This document shows positions 16,398 to 23,886 of a DNA stretch of 23,886 bases, piece after piece. The position numbers were made by a program, and so were the translations under genes. Origin of the DNA: a virus; IMG/VR virus record IMGVR_UViG_3300025674_000393, positions 1 to 23,886 of that record. One strand, given 5' to 3'. Numbering within the stretch: position 1 is the first letter of the stretch; each line of letters starts with the position of its first letter. A model generated the notes under the pieces. That model was given only the letters and a program-made list of their open reading frames with translations. It searched no databases and was not told the origin of the DNA.

Positions 16398-16763
16398 TTA
16401 CCGCTTGTCTCCACTACCAGAGAGGACACCCCTTACCTTTCGGTCATGTAGCTTACGTAAATTATTCTTCGCAAGCTCAGTCATGTCTACATTTAGATCA
16501 CGACATAGTGCAGCAATGTACCACAGACAATCTCCCACTTCGTCTGCTATTGCTTCACGATCAAACTTCCCATCACGTAAAATCTTTTTGACTTTATTAG
16601 CAACCTCACCTGCCTCTGCCGCCAAACCTAGTGCAGGGTAGATTACTTGATGTTCATGCTTATAGATCGCAGTCTCCGATGCCATATCTTGATATGACTT
16701 GAAGTTTAGGTTCTCGTATTTACTTTCCATAAATGCTCTAGCCTCTTCCTGTAAGTTGTTCAT
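16398..16763 (-). CDS. mazG: MazG-like nucleoside triphosphate pyrophosphohydrolase
   Basis: 121 residues, a single MazG domain. The metal-binding pattern of the family is complete: E50-A-G-E53 in [15 protein letters not shown], then E75-V-G-D78 in [14 protein letters not shown], i.e. ExxE followed by ExxD. MazG enzymes hydrolyse NTPs or dNTPs to the monophosphate and pyrophosphate; phage versions have been proposed to tune nucleotide pools or ppGpp during infection, but substrate preference cannot be read from the sequence. It is the last gene of the replication block and ends at the shared terminator. Its start overlaps the preceding Rmf-like gene by 26 bases; an AAGGAG lies only one base before the ATG, so a start at Met12 is a less likely alternative. 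Family assignment is firm. Confidence 0.9.
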
Positions 16764-17420: not shown

Positions 17421-17601
17421 TGTCGGCCCTCCATATTAGTTCAAATAAAAGTTTCTGTTGTTCGTACTCTGACATTATACACCAATCCCGTATCTCGTCA
17501 ATAGTTCTTTTACACCCCACGCAAAAGCCATCGTTGTCTATACGACAGACCTTCACGCAGGGTGATGGCACAGTGCCTAGCTGCTTACGATTTCTACTCA
17601 C
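17407..17601 (-). CDS. DUF1289 small cysteine-rich protein
   Basis: 64 residues from GTG at 17601. The core PSPCVKVCRIDNDGFCVGC carries four cysteines (C15, C19, C27, C30 by this start) and is followed by the helix KRTIDEIRDWCIMSEYEQ, the signature of DUF1289 proteins, widespread in proteobacteria and thought to bind an iron-sulfur cluster or zinc. The open frame extends to an ATG at 17649, but that would add a hydrophobic leader wholly inside the reductase gene, without a well-placed SD, so I prefer the GTG, which overlaps the reductase stop by eight bases. Neither start has a strong SD; coupling to reductase translation is likely. The link to ribonucleotide reduction is positional only. Confidence 0.65.
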   Translation of the reverse strand: MSRNRKQLGTVPSPCVKVCRIDNDGFCVGCKRTIDEIRDWCIMSEYEQQKLLFELIWRADNGNT

Positions 17602-19339
17602 ACTGACGTAAGCCAGTGGCAGGATCAAAGTAACAAGCACCACCTTCATCTACATAGTCTTGCGTTTCCTCTACTGGTTCCTCTTCTACTATGTCCTCAG
17701 AGGCAGATGCATTCAGGATACCATACCGCTTACCTGCTGCACGGAATGTTGTACACCCTGATGCACCACCATCGTATGCATCCATGTACACCTGCTTAAA
17801 CTCTTCCCACGTTACATCATCCCCTGTGTTACATGTCTTTGAACACGCAGAGTCAACATACCGTGATGCTACGTTCAGTACCTTGACGTGATCAAACACT
17901 GACAGTTCATCTGCAGTCTTACCTTTTACACCAAACACACGATAGCCGTAGTCTTCTACTCGTTCAACCTTGGGTCCATCAAAGGTTTGGATAGTTCTAT
18001 CGTAGTAATGGGAGAAGACTGGTTCAATCCCAGAGGATACGTTGTCGGCTGACAAGCTGATAGTTCCTGTTGGTGCAACCGAAAGAAGATGACTGTTGCG
18101 AATACCGTGAGTGCTAATGAGATCACGTATATTAGTAGGCAAAGACTTAGCAAAGTCAGACCCAAGGTATGCTTGACTAAAGAGAGGAAACGGACCTTTC
18201 TCAATAGCAAGCTCAACTGACGTAGTATATGCAACATCCCTGATCACTCCCATAATTTCTTCTAATGTCTGTAGGAAACGATCACTACCATACTCAAATC
18301 CTAATGCTTCAATGGCATTAGCTACTCCTGTTACCCCTAAACCCATACGGCGTTTGCTAATTGCCTCTGCCTTTTGTTCTACCAGTGGATAAGTAGCACG
18401 ATCCACAACGTTATCCATAGCACGTACCACATGAGGAATATCATTACGTAGTTGGTTCATATTAAATACGTACTTACCATCATGCTCTAGTACATACTTT
18501 GTTAGATTAAATGAACCTAGTAGACACGCACCATTGGGCGGTAGTGGTTGCTCACCACAGGGGTTTGTGGCTGCAATAGTTTCTACGTAATGCAGGTTGT
18601 TCTTTTTATTAATACGATCAATGAATAGAATCCCAGGTTCTGCCCAGTCCCATGTACTGCGTAGTATCTGATCCCATAATGCACGAGCACTTACCGTTTT
18701 GTATACACGTCCATCAAACTTTAGGTCAAAGTCTTTATCCTCTTTTACCGCAGTCATGAACTCATCCGTCACACCTACAGAGATGTTGAACTGTGTTAGT
18801 GTATCAGAGTTATTCTTGGCAGTAATAAACTCTTCAATGTCTGGATGATCCACACGTAGTACACCCATCTGTGCACCACGACGATGCCCTGCAGATGCAA
18901 TGGTACGACACACAGCATCAAAGATACCCATGAATGACACAGGACCAGATGACTTACTGTCCAGTGACTTGATCAGTGTACCACGTGGACGTAGTGTACT
19001 GAAGTCATAGCCAATGCCACCGCCAAGGCGCATTGTCTCTGCTGCACGACGAGCAGCTTCCATGATACCGTCCATGCTATCTTCAATTGTCATTGACACA
19101 AAGCAGTTGTACGGTGTTACACGACGAGGTGCACCCATTGCTGATTGCACACGTCCTGCAGGTAGAAAGCGTTGTTCATACAGGATTGTACGGAAGTTAT
19201 TAAAATGTGTTTCAGTATCTTTTAGTGCTTCAGCTACACGTGTCATTGCTTCACGAAATGTTTCACCCTTGCTACGGTATTTCATTGCATGAATCTCTTC
19301 TGATATTTTTAGTGTTGGTCCATAAGTTTCCATAAGCAT
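17594..19339 (-). CDS. nrdJ: Class II (adenosylcobalamin-dependent) ribonucleotide reductase
   Basis: 581 residues. It converts ribonucleotides to deoxyribonucleotides with a B12-derived radical. C79 in PYNCFVS is the first redox cysteine. N259, C261 and E263 in [11 protein letters not shown] form the catalytic triad with C261 as the thiyl-radical site. C272 in [10 protein letters not shown], 11 residues later, is the second redox cysteine. The SKTCN segment near 500 corresponds to the SKTIN substrate region. Two C-terminal cysteines (C569, C580) would shuttle electrons from thioredoxin or glutaredoxin. No ATP-cone is present, and the chain is shorter than most bacterial NrdJ proteins, as is usual in phages. 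The first ATG at 19339 overlaps the previous stop (TAATG); another in-frame ATG at 19333 is better spaced from GGAG (eight bases), so the true start is one of these two. No NrdB subunit is nearby or needed. Assignment is firm. Confidence 0.95.
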
Positions 19340-20040: not shown

Positions 20041-20493
20041 TTAGCTCCTTTTTATTTTGTCATAAGGAAATACTACTAAGTCTGGATGATTGTCAACACC
20101 TTTCTCTTTCAACCATTCTTCTGGAATAACCCTATCTGCATATAAGAATTTATTTCTTTCACACCATATGGCGTATGTTGTCTTTGCCCCTTTGCTTAAC
20201 TTACGTTTACTGTTTTCAAATACAAATCGTATGTCAAGATCAGGGTGCTGCTTCTTTACTGCTACGTGTTTGCGCCTATCATCTGATGTGAACCTTCCTT
20301 TCACTTCTACGATGATACCATTTGCAAGTATAAAGTCAGGGGTATAGGTGCGGTACATCAAATCTTCCCATTCAATCTTGATGGCTTCATACTTGAACTT
20401 GACTTTCTTCTCCTTCAAGTAATCTTTTACTTTGATCTCTAGCCCACTCCTATACCCATGCTTTAACGCAGCCTTGAACTGCTTACCGTTCAT
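20041..20493 (-). CDS. T7-type endonuclease I (Holliday junction resolvase)
   Basis: 150 residues, nearly the length of T7 gp3 (149). It cuts branched DNA and may help degrade host DNA and resolve replication intermediates. The active-site pattern of phage endonuclease I is complete: E19 in YRSGLEIKV, D53 in YTPDFIL, E63 and K65 in IIVEVKGRF, corresponding to Glu20, Asp55, Glu65 and Lys67 of T7. Other family features are FTSDDRRKH, HPDLDIRFVF, KLSKGAKTTYA and IPEEWL. The ATG overlaps the stop of the previous gene as TAATG, so translation is coupled. It works beside the exonuclease and polymerase encoded just upstream in the transcript. Assignment is firm. Confidence 0.92.
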   Translation of the reverse strand: MNGKQFKAALKHGYRSGLEIKVKDYLKEKKVKFKYEAIKIEWEDLMYRTYTPDFILANGIIVEVKGRFTSDDRRKHVAVKKQHPDLDIRFVFENSKRKLSKGAKTTYAIWCERNKFLYADRVIPEEWLKEKGVDNHPDLVVFPYDKIKRS

Positions 20494-20701: not shown

Positions 20702-21553
20702 TTAATCCTCTATGTATGCCACCGTCTTGGGGTCTTTTGCTTTACTTACCCGTGATGGTTCTTCAACCATGTTGGGCCAACACTCGTATCTGAAATCACA
20801 GAAACGACAATTATCATTTAGTACCTTATTTCCTGTGGGTTTACCACGGAAGAACTCGGGTACAGGACTGAAGCAACGTTTGAACTCATTGTTGTTCACC
20901 GTTTCAACAGTTGACTTAATTTTATCAAGTTCTTTGTCGAGGTCAAGACCATCAGCAGGTACGTATTTAAACTCACCATTGCCTTTGTTCACGACCCACC
21001 ATCCACCTACACGTTTGCCAGATGCTTTGGCATAACCTGCAAGCTGCCCTACATAACCAAATCCGTCACCCTTTGCTAGTGTGTCAAAGGAATCAAACTT
21101 GTTTGCGTAAGACCAAGGCGATGCTGACTTCACGTCATCAACAGCACCATCTAGTACAAGATCATAAGAGCCAGAAACCCTAGTATCATTACTATCTCCC
21201 ACTGTAAGGCTAACTTTATCAGTGTCTTCAAACTCCACGTTAGCAGCTTTAAGCAGACCTTTAAAAACAGCCTCAACAATGTCTCCTATCATCATGTTCA
21301 TTACAAATGTAGTCGGCTTAGGTAATGCCTTATCGGGTTGGTTCTTTTGAAACCAGAGTTGACAAGTAGGACGCCCAATGTTGGACATCCTAAGTGTAAA
21401 CTCATCCCGTGACTTACCACTGCCGAACTGACGAAGTACTGCATCAGCGACCTCTGCACCAATATCCTTAGCTTGTTCCTCAGTGAACGTACTCTTTCCA
21501 TTGGCAGCATCAGTCATAAACTGGTGCAGCTTTAGTTCAGCAGGGTGGTTCAT
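20702..21553 (-). CDS. Cas4/RecB-like PD-(D/E)XK exonuclease
   Basis: 283 residues. The nuclease core is visible in order: MIGDIVEAVFKGLL (motif I helix, residues 88-101), GSYDLVLDG with D131, DDVKS with D140 and K142 (the D/ExK pair), and GQLAGY with Q170 and Y174 (the QxxxY motif of RecB-type nucleases). Four cysteines, C64 in RPTCQLW and C249-x2-C252-x5-C258 in CRFCDFRYECW, are placed as in Cas4 and AddB, where they hold a 4Fe-4S cluster. Such enzymes degrade DNA ends; here it probably replaces the T7 gp6 exonuclease and supports host DNA breakdown or recombination. The ATG overlaps the stop of the ssDNA-binding candidate gene as TAATG. No CRISPR is present, so it is not an adaptation protein. 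Assignment to the superfamily is firm; polarity of digestion is unknown. Confidence 0.88.
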   Translation of the reverse strand: MNHPAELKLHQFMTDAANGKSTFTEEQAKDIGAEVADAVLRQFGSGKSRDEFTLRMSNIGRPTCQLWFQKNQPDKALPKPTTFVMNMMIGDIVEAVFKGLLKAANVEFEDTDKVSLTVGDSNDTRVSGSYDLVLDGAVDDVKSASPWSYANKFDSFDTLAKGDGFGYVGQLAGYAKASGKRVGGWWVVNKGNGEFKYVPADGLDLDKELDKIKSTVETVNNNEFKRCFSPVPEFFRGKPTGNKVLNDNCRFCDFRYECWPNMVEEPSRVSKAKDPKTVAYIED

Positions 21554-22443
21554 TACACGAAATCCTCTGCGTCAATGTCTACAAATGACTCAACAGTATC
21601 TGTATCTGTGTCATCATTCTTGTACGCATTGTCATTCCAAGCACCCTTGATGTACTCGTTGTAATTCTCCACCCATGCTAGGAAGTTGGCAAATGTTTCC
21701 TGCTCTGCGTCTTGCACATCAAGTGTTTCGTTCAGATCAAGAGCCAATGTAGGCAGATAGAACTTACTACCATTAGGTAATGCACGTTCTTCAGTTGCAG
21801 CTTTGATGTTGTGCTGCACTGGCAAACGGCGCATCTTGCCTAGCTTGTTGAACAGTGTTCCCGCAGTTTTAAATGCATCACGGTTTTCAATCTCCCAGAT
21901 GAATGCCTGTTCATCTAGTTCAACTGGATTACCTTGTGCATCAGTAACGTCATGCAGTTGCACTGTACCGAACATAACACGAACACGTTTGATCTGACGG
22001 ATCAACTCTTGTGTTTTCTCAGGCAATGCTTTGAAGTCTTCAATGTAACCTGCAGGTTTACCACAGTTGAAGCCACCATCATTGTCCTTCATGTCATTGT
22101 TCAAATCGTTAGCCATTAATGTTTTGACATAACGATTAGGTGTAGTATCACTACCCTTGATGAAACGCTTGTACATGAAGCGTTGTAGGTATGGACGAAT
22201 AGTCGCAGTAGGTGCATAGTATGTTGGCCCATCTGGGATTTCCAACTTGTACGTACCGCCTGATACAACTTCCATCTTTACCTTCTTGCCGTTCACTGTT
22301 TCCTCACCCATGATAGCTGAGTGATTGATACGTAAACGTGCAAGTGTACTTGCCTGTGACTTCTGATTGTTGTCAACAGACATGCCCATTGCTTCTGCCA
22401 TTGCGTTGAAGTTACCAGTGTTAATTGTTGCTACTTGATTCAT
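21553..22443 (-). CDS. Putative ssDNA-binding protein
   Basis: 296 residues, SD AAGGAG eight bases before ATG. There is no clear named motif, but the layout fits a phage single-strand binding protein: a mixed beta core (residues ~35-235; for example KVKMEVVSGGTYKLEIPDG, then VRVMFGTVQLHDV) and a very acidic tail (NDDTDTDTVESFVDIDAEDF then V). T7 gp2.5 and bacterial SSB also end in acidic residues with a terminal aromatic, used to bind partner proteins. Genes for the polymerase and exonuclease lie on either side, matching the T7 set 2.5, 3, 5, 6. Its stop overlaps the exonuclease start (TAATG). It could instead be another replication accessory; confidence in the gene is very high, in the role moderate. 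Confidence 0.6.
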   Translation of the reverse strand: MNQVATINTGNFNAMAEAMGMSVDNNQKSQASTLARLRINHSAIMGEETVNGKKVKMEVVSGGTYKLEIPDGPTYYAPTATIRPYLQRFMYKRFIKGSDTTPNRYVKTLMANDLNNDMKDNDGGFNCGKPAGYIEDFKALPEKTQELIRQIKRVRVMFGTVQLHDVTDAQGNPVELDEQAFIWEIENRDAFKTAGTLFNKLGKMRRLPVQHNIKAATEERALPNGSKFYLPTLALDLNETLDVQDAEQETFANFLAWVENYNEYIKGAWNDNAYKNDDTDTDTVESFVDIDAEDFV

Positions 22444-22481: not shown

Positions 22482-23886
22482 TCACGACACGTCTTTTGTG
22501 TCAAGCCAATTCGGGCCGATTTTTGCTTCTAATAAAAGTGGTACATTGAAATCCAGTTTCCACTTCTTATTGACGATAGCAAGCAGTCGGTCATTGGCTG
22601 CTGTTATTATCCGTAATACTTTGTCCTTTTCGTTGGGATGCACATCAATCACGATGGAGTCGTGTACGGTATTGACGATGCATGATTGCATTTGATTAGC
22701 CCCTAATAGCTTGTCGATGTATATCAGGGATATAGGTACAATGTCAGCCGTGGCAAACGATTGTACAGGAAAGTTTTTAATCTGTGTGAAAAATGTCACA
22801 GTACCATTAGCACGTCGAGTAACATCAGGGAAAGAGAACTCACGACCAGATGGTGTTTTGATCTTACCCGTAGCCAGAGCCTCACGTGCAAGCTCTTTAT
22901 GCCACTTGCCTATACCTGAGTACTTCTTAGTGAACTGCTCATAGTACGCAGCCTCAGCAGGTGTACGACCAAATCCACTGGCACCATATAACGGAGCAAA
23001 TGTATGTGCCTTGGCTTCTTGGCGTGACATGTTCTGTCCTGCATCAGTGATAACCTGTGCAGTATACGAGTGTACGTCAAAGCCTGTGGTCACCTCGTCA
23101 ATGGCAGTCTTGTCCTGTGATAGGAATGCAGCCACACGAAACTCTAACTGTGCAAAGTCAGCTTCCATGATTTCACCACCATCCCAACGTGACTTGAACA
23201 CACGTTTTACGGGGAACGTACCACCACGTGGCATGTTCTGCATGTTAGGATCAGCACCAGACAAACGCCCAGTAGCAGTGCGGTGTTGTAGTAACCTGAC
23301 GTGCAGCTTACCATCTTGTTTTACATGTGTTGAGATACCTTCCACAAAGCTTGAGAGATATGTGTCAACGGCAGACAAACGGCGTACTCGTTGTAAGAAC
23401 AACACTGCGTCTTGCATATCACGTTCTCTAGCGACACCTTCAAGGTATTCAAGCTTATCTTTACTCGTTGCGAAACCGTTGGCTGAAGCCCATTTTGAAG
23501 TTGGAGCATTGAACTTTAACCCAGCAACAGTCGAAACAATATTAACATAAATAAAACCCGTGCTATCGCAGTTGCTGCATCGGTTAGTTCTGGCGTATAG
23601 TGTTCCATCTTTCTTTACCTTTCTGATCTGACCAGTACCATTACATGTACGGCACTGTTTTGCTTTCTGTTTGTACAATGTCTCAGTATTCTGACGCACC
23701 GTACTACGATACTCCGTATCTGTCATACGGAAGTCTTCAAACAGTCCTGCCCATACTTTCTTGTCCTTGGGTTTCTTACTGTAGATAACCCATGACAATT
23801 GTTCTGGACTGTTCAAGTTGATTGGACGATCACCCATCAGTTCACGTACCTGTTCCTCAAGGTCAGCAACCAACTGGTCACGTTCC
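22482..23886 (-). CDS. polA: Family A DNA polymerase with DnaJ-like zinc finger insert (5' end outside window)
   Basis: The frame runs to the right edge, so the N-terminus (and any 3'-5' exonuclease) is missing; the TTG at 23873 is not a real start. Counting from that codon: GDRPINLNSPEQL (14-26) opens the polymerase domain. C74, C77, C99 and C102 form a DnaJ-type zinc finger (CRTCNGTG ... CSNCDSTG) within the thumb region. TATGRLSGADPNMQNMP follows at ~199-215, motif A is ADFAQLEFR with D239, motif B R284-x3-K288-x3-F292-x3-Y296-G, motif C VHDS with D405. Phe at the position of E. coli F762 is the common dNTP-selective form. Motif C has Ser where most have Glu. The DnaJ-like part is a hallmark of HMO-2011-type phages. 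It copies the phage genome. It is 38 bases upstream of nothing else on this strand: the ssDNA-binding candidate gene starts 39 bases after its stop. Confidence 0.95.
   Translation of the reverse strand, partial: ERDQLVADLEEQVRELMGDRPINLNSPEQLSWVIYSKKPKDKKVWAGLFEDFRMTDTEYRSTVRQNTETLYKQKAKQCRTCNGTGQIRKVKKDGTLYARTNRCSNCDSTGFIYVNIVSTVAGLKFNAPTSKWASANGFATSKDKLEYLEGVARERDMQDAVLFLQRVRRLSAVDTYLSSFVEGISTHVKQDGKLHVRLLQHRTATGRLSGADPNMQNMPRGGTFPVKRVFKSRWDGGEIMEADFAQLEFRVAAFLSQDKTAIDEVTTGFDVHSYTAQVITDAGQNMSRQEAKAHTFAPLYGASGFGRTPAEAAYYEQFTKKYSGIGKWHKELAREALATGKIKTPSGREFSFPDVTRRANGTVTFFTQIKNFPVQSFATADIVPISLIYIDKLLGANQMQSCIVNTVHDSIVIDVHPNEKDKVLRIITAANDRLLAIVNKKWKLDFNVPLLLEAKIGPNWLDTKDVS
23556..23654 (-). other. 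DnaJ-type zinc finger segment within the polymerase gene
   Basis: The segment encodes CRTCNGTG, a 16-residue basic linker (QIRKVKKDGTLYARTN plus R) and CSNCDSTG. Two CxxCxxxG knuckles that bind zinc in DnaJ (Hsp40) are thus present as one pair rather than the four repeats of DnaJ. It lies between the NLNSPEQL segment and the TSKDKLEYL helix that leads to the TGRLS motif, i.e. in the thumb region, the same general place as the thioredoxin-binding loop of T7 polymerase. Confidence 0.8.

Follow-up and report, generated by a model that had tools for sequence, protein, structure and literature searches.

A DnaJ-like zinc finger between two thumb helices of an HMO-2011-type phage DNA polymerase: a putative DNA-holding arm that changes fast in the CRP-1 lineage

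The polymerase gene and its neighbours

The window, as we call the whole 23,886-nucleotide stretch of viral DNA analysed here, ends within a gene encoding the C-terminal 467 aa (thumb, palm and fingers) of a family A DNA polymerase (positions 22482..23885, minus strand), which is open through the window end; the 5' end of the gene, with the exonuclease domain, lies beyond it. The window protein matches DNA_pol_A (PF00476, 5.5e-56), and the 3'-5' exonuclease domain (PF01612) is found at 2.4e-8 in a relative, L001, in the part that is cut off from the window's protein. The full-length polymerases of L001 and of roseophage CRP-1 consist of 683 aa each. Across the 467 residues, the window protein is 98% identical to L001, 93.8% to CRP-1, 80.3% to CRP-345 and 66.2% to HMO-2011, followed by CRP-2 (58.2%), HTVC033P (44.8%) and others down to CRP-738 (36.9%), all of them HMO-2011-type phages. 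The window polymerase is the replicative enzyme of a marine phage of the HMO-2011 type that is close to roseophage CRP-1, and it is the same protein, with the same architecture, as in HMO-2011, CRP-1, CRP-2, CRP-3 and HTVC033P. PMC9038755 describes HMO-2011-type phages as a dominant group with a broad distribution across the ocean. HMO-2011-type contigs (L289-L297), some of which appear twice under two names, were also found in marine MAG bins of Flavobacteriales, Neomarinimicrobiota, Euryarchaeota and others, a placement most likely due to binning contamination.

The gene next downstream of the polymerase (positions 21553..22443, minus strand) encodes a beta-rich protein of 296 aa with a disordered acidic C-terminal tail ending in DIDAEDFV, and is syntenic in the HMO-2011-type genomes examined. 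The tail carries a mean of 8.4 acidic residues in the last 25, its acidity being conserved as a property. The window's 296-aa protein gave no Pfam or PHROG match, and its model gave no significant Foldseek match (best E 0.033, TM 0.12); it could be a candidate ssDNA-binding protein of unrecognised fold. Further along the window lie genes for a 283-aa Cas4-type exonuclease (20702-21553, minus strand; phrog_1990, 4.8e-36), a neighbouring 150-aa endonuclease (20041-20493; phrog_945, 1.5e-50), the 581-aa large subunit of a ribonucleotide reductase (17594-19339, minus strand; phrog_84, 1.7e-131), copies of which are annotated as adenosylcobalamin-dependent in relatives, and a 121-aa MazG-like pyrophosphatase (16398-16763, minus strand; phrog_229, 5e-38).

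The zinc finger and its place in the thumb

Sequence, Pfam, profile and conservation all locate a zinc finger at C78-G110 of the window polymerase (positions 23556..23654; all polymerase features are on the minus strand), comprising a CxxCxGxG and a CxxCxxTG knuckle. Residues 78 to 110 (CRTCNGTGQIRKVKKDGTLYARTNRCSNCDSTG), which read C78-RTCNGTG...CSNCDSTG110, map exactly onto 23654..23556, and the coordinates and motifs of the initial annotation were right to the base. The protein contains only five cysteines, at positions 78, 81, 103, 106 and 402; in 200,000 shuffles of its sequence the CxxC..CxxC arrangement arose twice and the full pattern 0 times. The cysteine pattern is not due to chance.

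The finger is an already published feature, seen here in a new sequence from a known phage group. According to PMC6918029 and PMC9038755, a partial DnaJ domain lies between the exonuclease and polymerase domains of HMO-2011-type polymerases, an architecture that is a published hallmark of these phages, and the annotation of the HMO-2011 record (GU557055) carries a Pfam note on the partial DnaJ domain. The initial annotation's reading of the finger as a DnaJ-like zinc module within a family A polymerase thumb, with precedent in HMO-2011-type phages, is supported. Neither paper tests any function of the finger, which agrees with the view of the initial annotation that its role was not settled, and the literature searched yielded no experimental work on the finger of an HMO-2011-type polymerase. 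PMC9038755 uses two CXXCXGXG motifs as a criterion for HMO-2011-type membership. Against this strict pattern, the first motif of the window protein is exact, whereas the second is CSNCDSTG, with Ser for the middle Gly; of 97 relatives, 63 have G at this middle position, 22 have A, 10 have S and 2 have T.

Four queries yielded 280 polymerase reading frames; all four cysteines were present in 272 of them, which includes every relative that covers the site (272/272), and the other eight were four outgroup polymerases and four fragments starting past the finger. As the patterns used included some from the finger linker, the search was redone with palm-only patterns in viral and genome collections, which again gave four cysteines in every frame covering the site (82/82); in one of these, L374, the final Gly of the finger is lost with the four cysteines kept. 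Cysteine occupies all four positions in 255/255 aligned sequences while its codons mix TGT and TGC at each position, indicating that these residues are under purifying selection. In the 97-sequence alignment, C294, C297, G299, C319, C322 and G326 are invariant (L001 numbering, that is, the window number plus 216). The basic linker between the knuckles (residues 86-102, QIRKVKKDGTLYARTNR, positions 23580..23630), defined from the alignments, carries K or R at 305 in 247/255 and at 307 in 255/255 sequences (window residues 89 and 91; 97-100% of relatives). The distance between the knuckles is 21 residues in 85/97 relatives and 33-34 in 11/97, the extra length of the latter being confined to the basic hairpin (e.g., KVKTKIKLGKKYR). 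The CRP738-like polymerases L093-L172 have a linker of 33-34 residues in which only the basic hairpin is extended (e.g., KFKVKTKIKLGKKYRVQGDPYKNRTKC). Gut-phage and VpV262 polymerases lack the finger despite good overall scores, and a tblastn search of 50,697 phage records with the finger as query returned only HMO-2011-type phages above noise, which led us to reject its presence in polymerases outside this group.

The Pfam family DnaJ_CXXCXGXG matches the window protein at 1.4e-5 (25.7 bits, under the gathering cut-off of 32.7) and 26 of 33 relatives with E values of at most 0.01. Furthermore, a profile of 22 fingers finds the Cys-rich domain of E. coli DnaJ (1exk) at 1.5e-4, on motifs II-III. 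The finger shares two CxxCxGxG-type knuckles with this DnaJ (Hsp40) module, but it has two such motifs instead of four, the other zinc module being absent; it has a linker of 21-34 residues with a conserved basic hairpin, and it is embedded in a polymerase. No J-domain (HPD, PF00226) was matched in the window protein or among the families of the 33 relatives, most of which are full length. By its motifs, the finger is one DnaJ-like zinc module and not a DnaJ protein; its common descent with the DnaJ module is possible on modest evidence. That it retains a DnaJ-like chaperone or thiol-reductase activity is scarcely credible, since the likeness to the DnaJ Cys-rich domain extends to one of the two zinc modules, and both the J-domain and the substrate-binding domain are absent.

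As had been noted, the finger lies between the NLNSPEQL segment and the helix before TGRLS, a placement that alignment and motif spacing both support. The thumb helix past NLNS, equivalent to helix H1 of Pol I, spans residues 27-35 (positions 23781..23807), as assigned from helix 243-251 of the L001 model and the Klenow alignment NLSSTKQLQTILFE; the helix past the insert, equivalent to H2, spans residues 142-154 (positions 23424..23462; helix 358-370 of the L001 model). By motif spacing, the insert occupies the H1-H2 loop between them (residues 37-136, positions 23478..23777); among the 97 relatives its net charge is +6 to +19, and that of the finger +3 to +13.

The insertion site was judged by the distances between fixed motifs, from the start of helix H to NxxS (the start of H1) and from H1 to H2; an automatic alignment that placed the NPSS of T7 inside the insert was not used for this assignment. 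From H1 to H2 there are 106-130 residues in the four HMO-2011-type polymerases measured, against 20-22 in Pol I, 21 in VpV262 and 19 in T7, the latter being a loop of normal length. From H to H1, in turn, there are 40 residues in HMO-2011-type polymerases, 35-36 in bacterial Pol I and 104 in T7, and an insert of the T7 type between H and H1 is absent here. Given these spacings, the thioredoxin-binding domain of T7 polymerase, which we take to be residues 258-333, precedes H1. The proposal that the finger sits in the thioredoxin-binding thumb region of T7 was therefore not supported: a shared position is rejected on the spacings, the T7 loop lying between H and H1 and the finger between H1 and H2. 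Judged from motif spacing, these are separate insertions that lie next to each other at the thumb tip. They resemble each other in insert length, in basic residues and in their location in the thumb of a phage family A polymerase, but the T7 insert has no cysteine knuckles, and no sequence similarity to the finger was seen. From its neighbouring site, the finger could nevertheless serve the same job as the T7 loop.

Large H1-H2 inserts occur in further phages. A tblastn search with the thumb of the Scott polymerase matched 888 phage records, and in the eight polymerases sampled (Scott, Titan-X, RHEph02, KpV71, K380, LKD16, Petty and OWB) the insert measures 111-144 residues, with no CxxC pairs in any of the eight. 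Since several phage lineages carry such inserts, the H1-H2 site tolerates and retains arms. These phiKMV-, KP34- and Scott-like inserts share the thumb place of the window's insert but are Cys-poor, lack zinc knuckles and show no detectable homology to it. A common origin with the Scott/phiKMV-like inserts, suggested by a likeness seen by eye (WASA, and SGKNKG vs KKDG), was rejected at an insert-only hhalign probability of 0.2%.

AlphaFold2 was run on full-length L001 (683 aa, 97 sequences) as protein alone and gave a model with a mean pLDDT of 89.9 and a pTM of 0.82, which was read for its confidence and secondary structure. In this model the finger (294-326, block pLDDT 86-90) lies between strands 287-293 and 327-336, which are flanked by helices 272-282 and 358-370. 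The first ribbon strand carrying the finger corresponds to window residues 71-77 (positions 23655..23675; block pLDDT 90-94) and the second to residues 111-120 (positions 23526..23555). The prediction thus has thumb helices flanking a two-stranded ribbon, at whose end the finger sits. Foldseek matched the whole L001 model to Pol I large fragments, mostly DNA-bound entries, and also to phage PolA models.

The finger as the fastest-changing stretch in the CRP-1 lineage

The window protein differs from its close relative L003 by 14 amino acids over 450 aligned residues, 13 of them inside residues 75-120 and 12 inside residues 96-119 (positions 23529..23600), the most variable part among close relatives. 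Likewise, 22 of its 27 differences from CRP-1 fall inside residues 75-120. At the nucleotide level, 22 of 60 bases differ between the window and L003 in codons 101-120, against 0-5 in most later blocks. Across 123 pairs with palms at most 3% different, drawn from the HMO-2011/CRP-1 group and not independent of one another, the 46-residue stretch 291-336 (L001 numbering) changes fastest by far, differing by a mean of 25.9%, against 2.9% for the median stretch. Finger and palm distances are only loosely related (Spearman coefficient 0.37), and fingers are up to 54% apart where palms are at most 2% apart. Nonsynonymous change in close pairs is highest at 321-332, where it affects 30.6% of codons, and their synonymous change roughly doubles at 273-308. 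The pN/pS ratio is 0.30 in the finger vs 0.05 in the palm. The four cysteines never change in the CRP-1 lineage despite this rapid change.

The raised synonymous change around the finger suggests an exchange of segments beyond point mutation alone, and the large nonsynonymous component suggests that the second-knuckle side is diversifying or weakly constrained. Chimeric contigs do not explain the pattern, because the isolate genome CRP-1 shows the same contrast. A hot spot shared by the whole HMO-2011-type group was rejected, since the finger does not clearly rank first among the stretches in an independent set of 61 relatives or in the HTVC033P-, CRP3- and CRP738-like groups; the rapid change is specific to the window's lineage. 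The available text of PMC6918029 and PMC9038755 makes no mention of a fast-changing finger, and we regard this as a new part that is worth following.

Relaxed constraint on a structural plug without a special role would also produce fast change, and the nonsynonymous fraction is highest or joint highest in the finger in each of four groups. We nonetheless consider a plug very unlikely, as the four cysteines, two glycines and basic positions of the linker stay fixed in relatives as distant as about 35% identity, and no finger-less relative was found among the frames covering the site in either retrieval. A more speculative and, in our estimate, unlikely reading of the CRP-1-lineage finger is that of an exchangeable allele cassette, in which a fixed zinc scaffold and basic hairpin would carry a surface that phages exchange with one another through recombination and whose diversity the hosts maintain, either through docking of a host-specific factor or through host defences or inhibitors that recognise the finger.

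Fast surface change on a fixed scaffold would also fit a partner-facing surface. The finger might be a docking site for a host protein (such as DnaK or thioredoxin) or a phage replication protein, providing processivity or replisome coupling. DnaJ zinc modules bind proteins, which counts for such docking, and the product of the adjacent downstream gene, beta-rich and with an acidic, disordered tail, is a possible, putative partner of the basic arm. Moreover, the tail of the T7 ssDNA-binding protein (gp2.5) also docks on the T7 thioredoxin-binding domain (PMC7699545). Against docking, however, a J-domain to stimulate DnaK is absent, neither a family nor a fold was matched by the 296-aa protein, and the palm tracks the phage replication proteins better than the finger does. 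Where the palms of a pair differed by at most 3%, finger distance correlated with the distances of the helicase, primase, 296-aa protein, exonuclease and endonuclease I at 0.38, 0.70, 0.26, 0.40 and 0.37, respectively, and palm distance at 0.55, 0.81, 0.76, 0.56 and 0.78, stronger each time; in 22 pairs the finger was more than 30% different while the 296-aa protein was less than 3% different. No co-variation of the finger with the five proteins beyond that of the palm was detected in these pairs, and nothing indicates co-evolution of the variable face with them; the test bears on these five phage proteins, not on a host partner or a nonspecific contact of the hairpin. The 296-aa product as an SSB docking on the finger was accordingly rejected, on the missing family and fold match and the missing co-variation beyond the palm, and docking in general is for us a tentative and somewhat unlikely alternative.

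A putative zinc-stapled arm at the thumb tip

The reading that we prefer, at about an even chance (roughly 0.5), is that the thumb tip carries a basic beta-ribbon arm, stapled by zinc, which grips the primer-template with no need of thioredoxin. This reading sets a predicted fold and an inferred function beside the observed sequence, conservation, insertion site, charge and lineage-specific fast change. The core of the H1-H2 insert would be the predicted two-stranded ribbon, its end held by one zinc ion, presumably bound by the two cysteine knuckles, which resemble DnaJ zinc module II, with the conserved basic hairpin KxKKDG sitting between them. Stapled by zinc, the arm could let the hairpin reach over the newly made primer-template duplex, and might thereby raise DNA affinity and processivity without thioredoxin.

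The arm is favoured by the fixed cysteines and glycines, the basic insert, the H1-H2 site, the ribbon model and the parallel inserts in other phages, as well as by work on T3 and T7. A DNA-holding role of the H1-H2 loop is supported by a Klenow thumb-tip deletion (Minnick and others, 1996), which presumably covers what is counted here as this loop and which reportedly lost DNA affinity and processivity. The thioredoxin-binding domain of T3 gave a higher processivity when put into the Taq thumb, where it replaced residues 480-485, a site that agrees with a position before H1 (PMC4215692), and basic residues of the T7 domain touch the DNA backbone in simulations (PMC5984650). Two points weaken the arm model: in the window's lineage the second knuckle and the following strand change fast, which is unexpected if the whole finger touches DNA, and the Scott-like inserts share no detectable homology with this one, some of them not being basic.

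An arm of this kind could instead alter strand displacement, lesion bypass or primer grip rather than processivity, in the manner of the thumb and finger inserts of plant organellar polymerases. In Arabidopsis organellar polymerases, insertions 1 and 3, with key lysines, contribute to lesion bypass, lyase activity and end joining (PMC7699545), but HMO-2011-type phages need a replicative enzyme first, and such a role for their finger seems to us quite improbable.

If the zinc-stapled arm is a built-in processivity element, it would represent a second route to the effect that thioredoxin has in T7, at a neighbouring site of the thumb. The corrected insertion site shows experimenters what to delete and what to transplant. 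Furthermore, the rapid change of the finger in one lineage makes host-driven diversification of a core replication enzyme testable.
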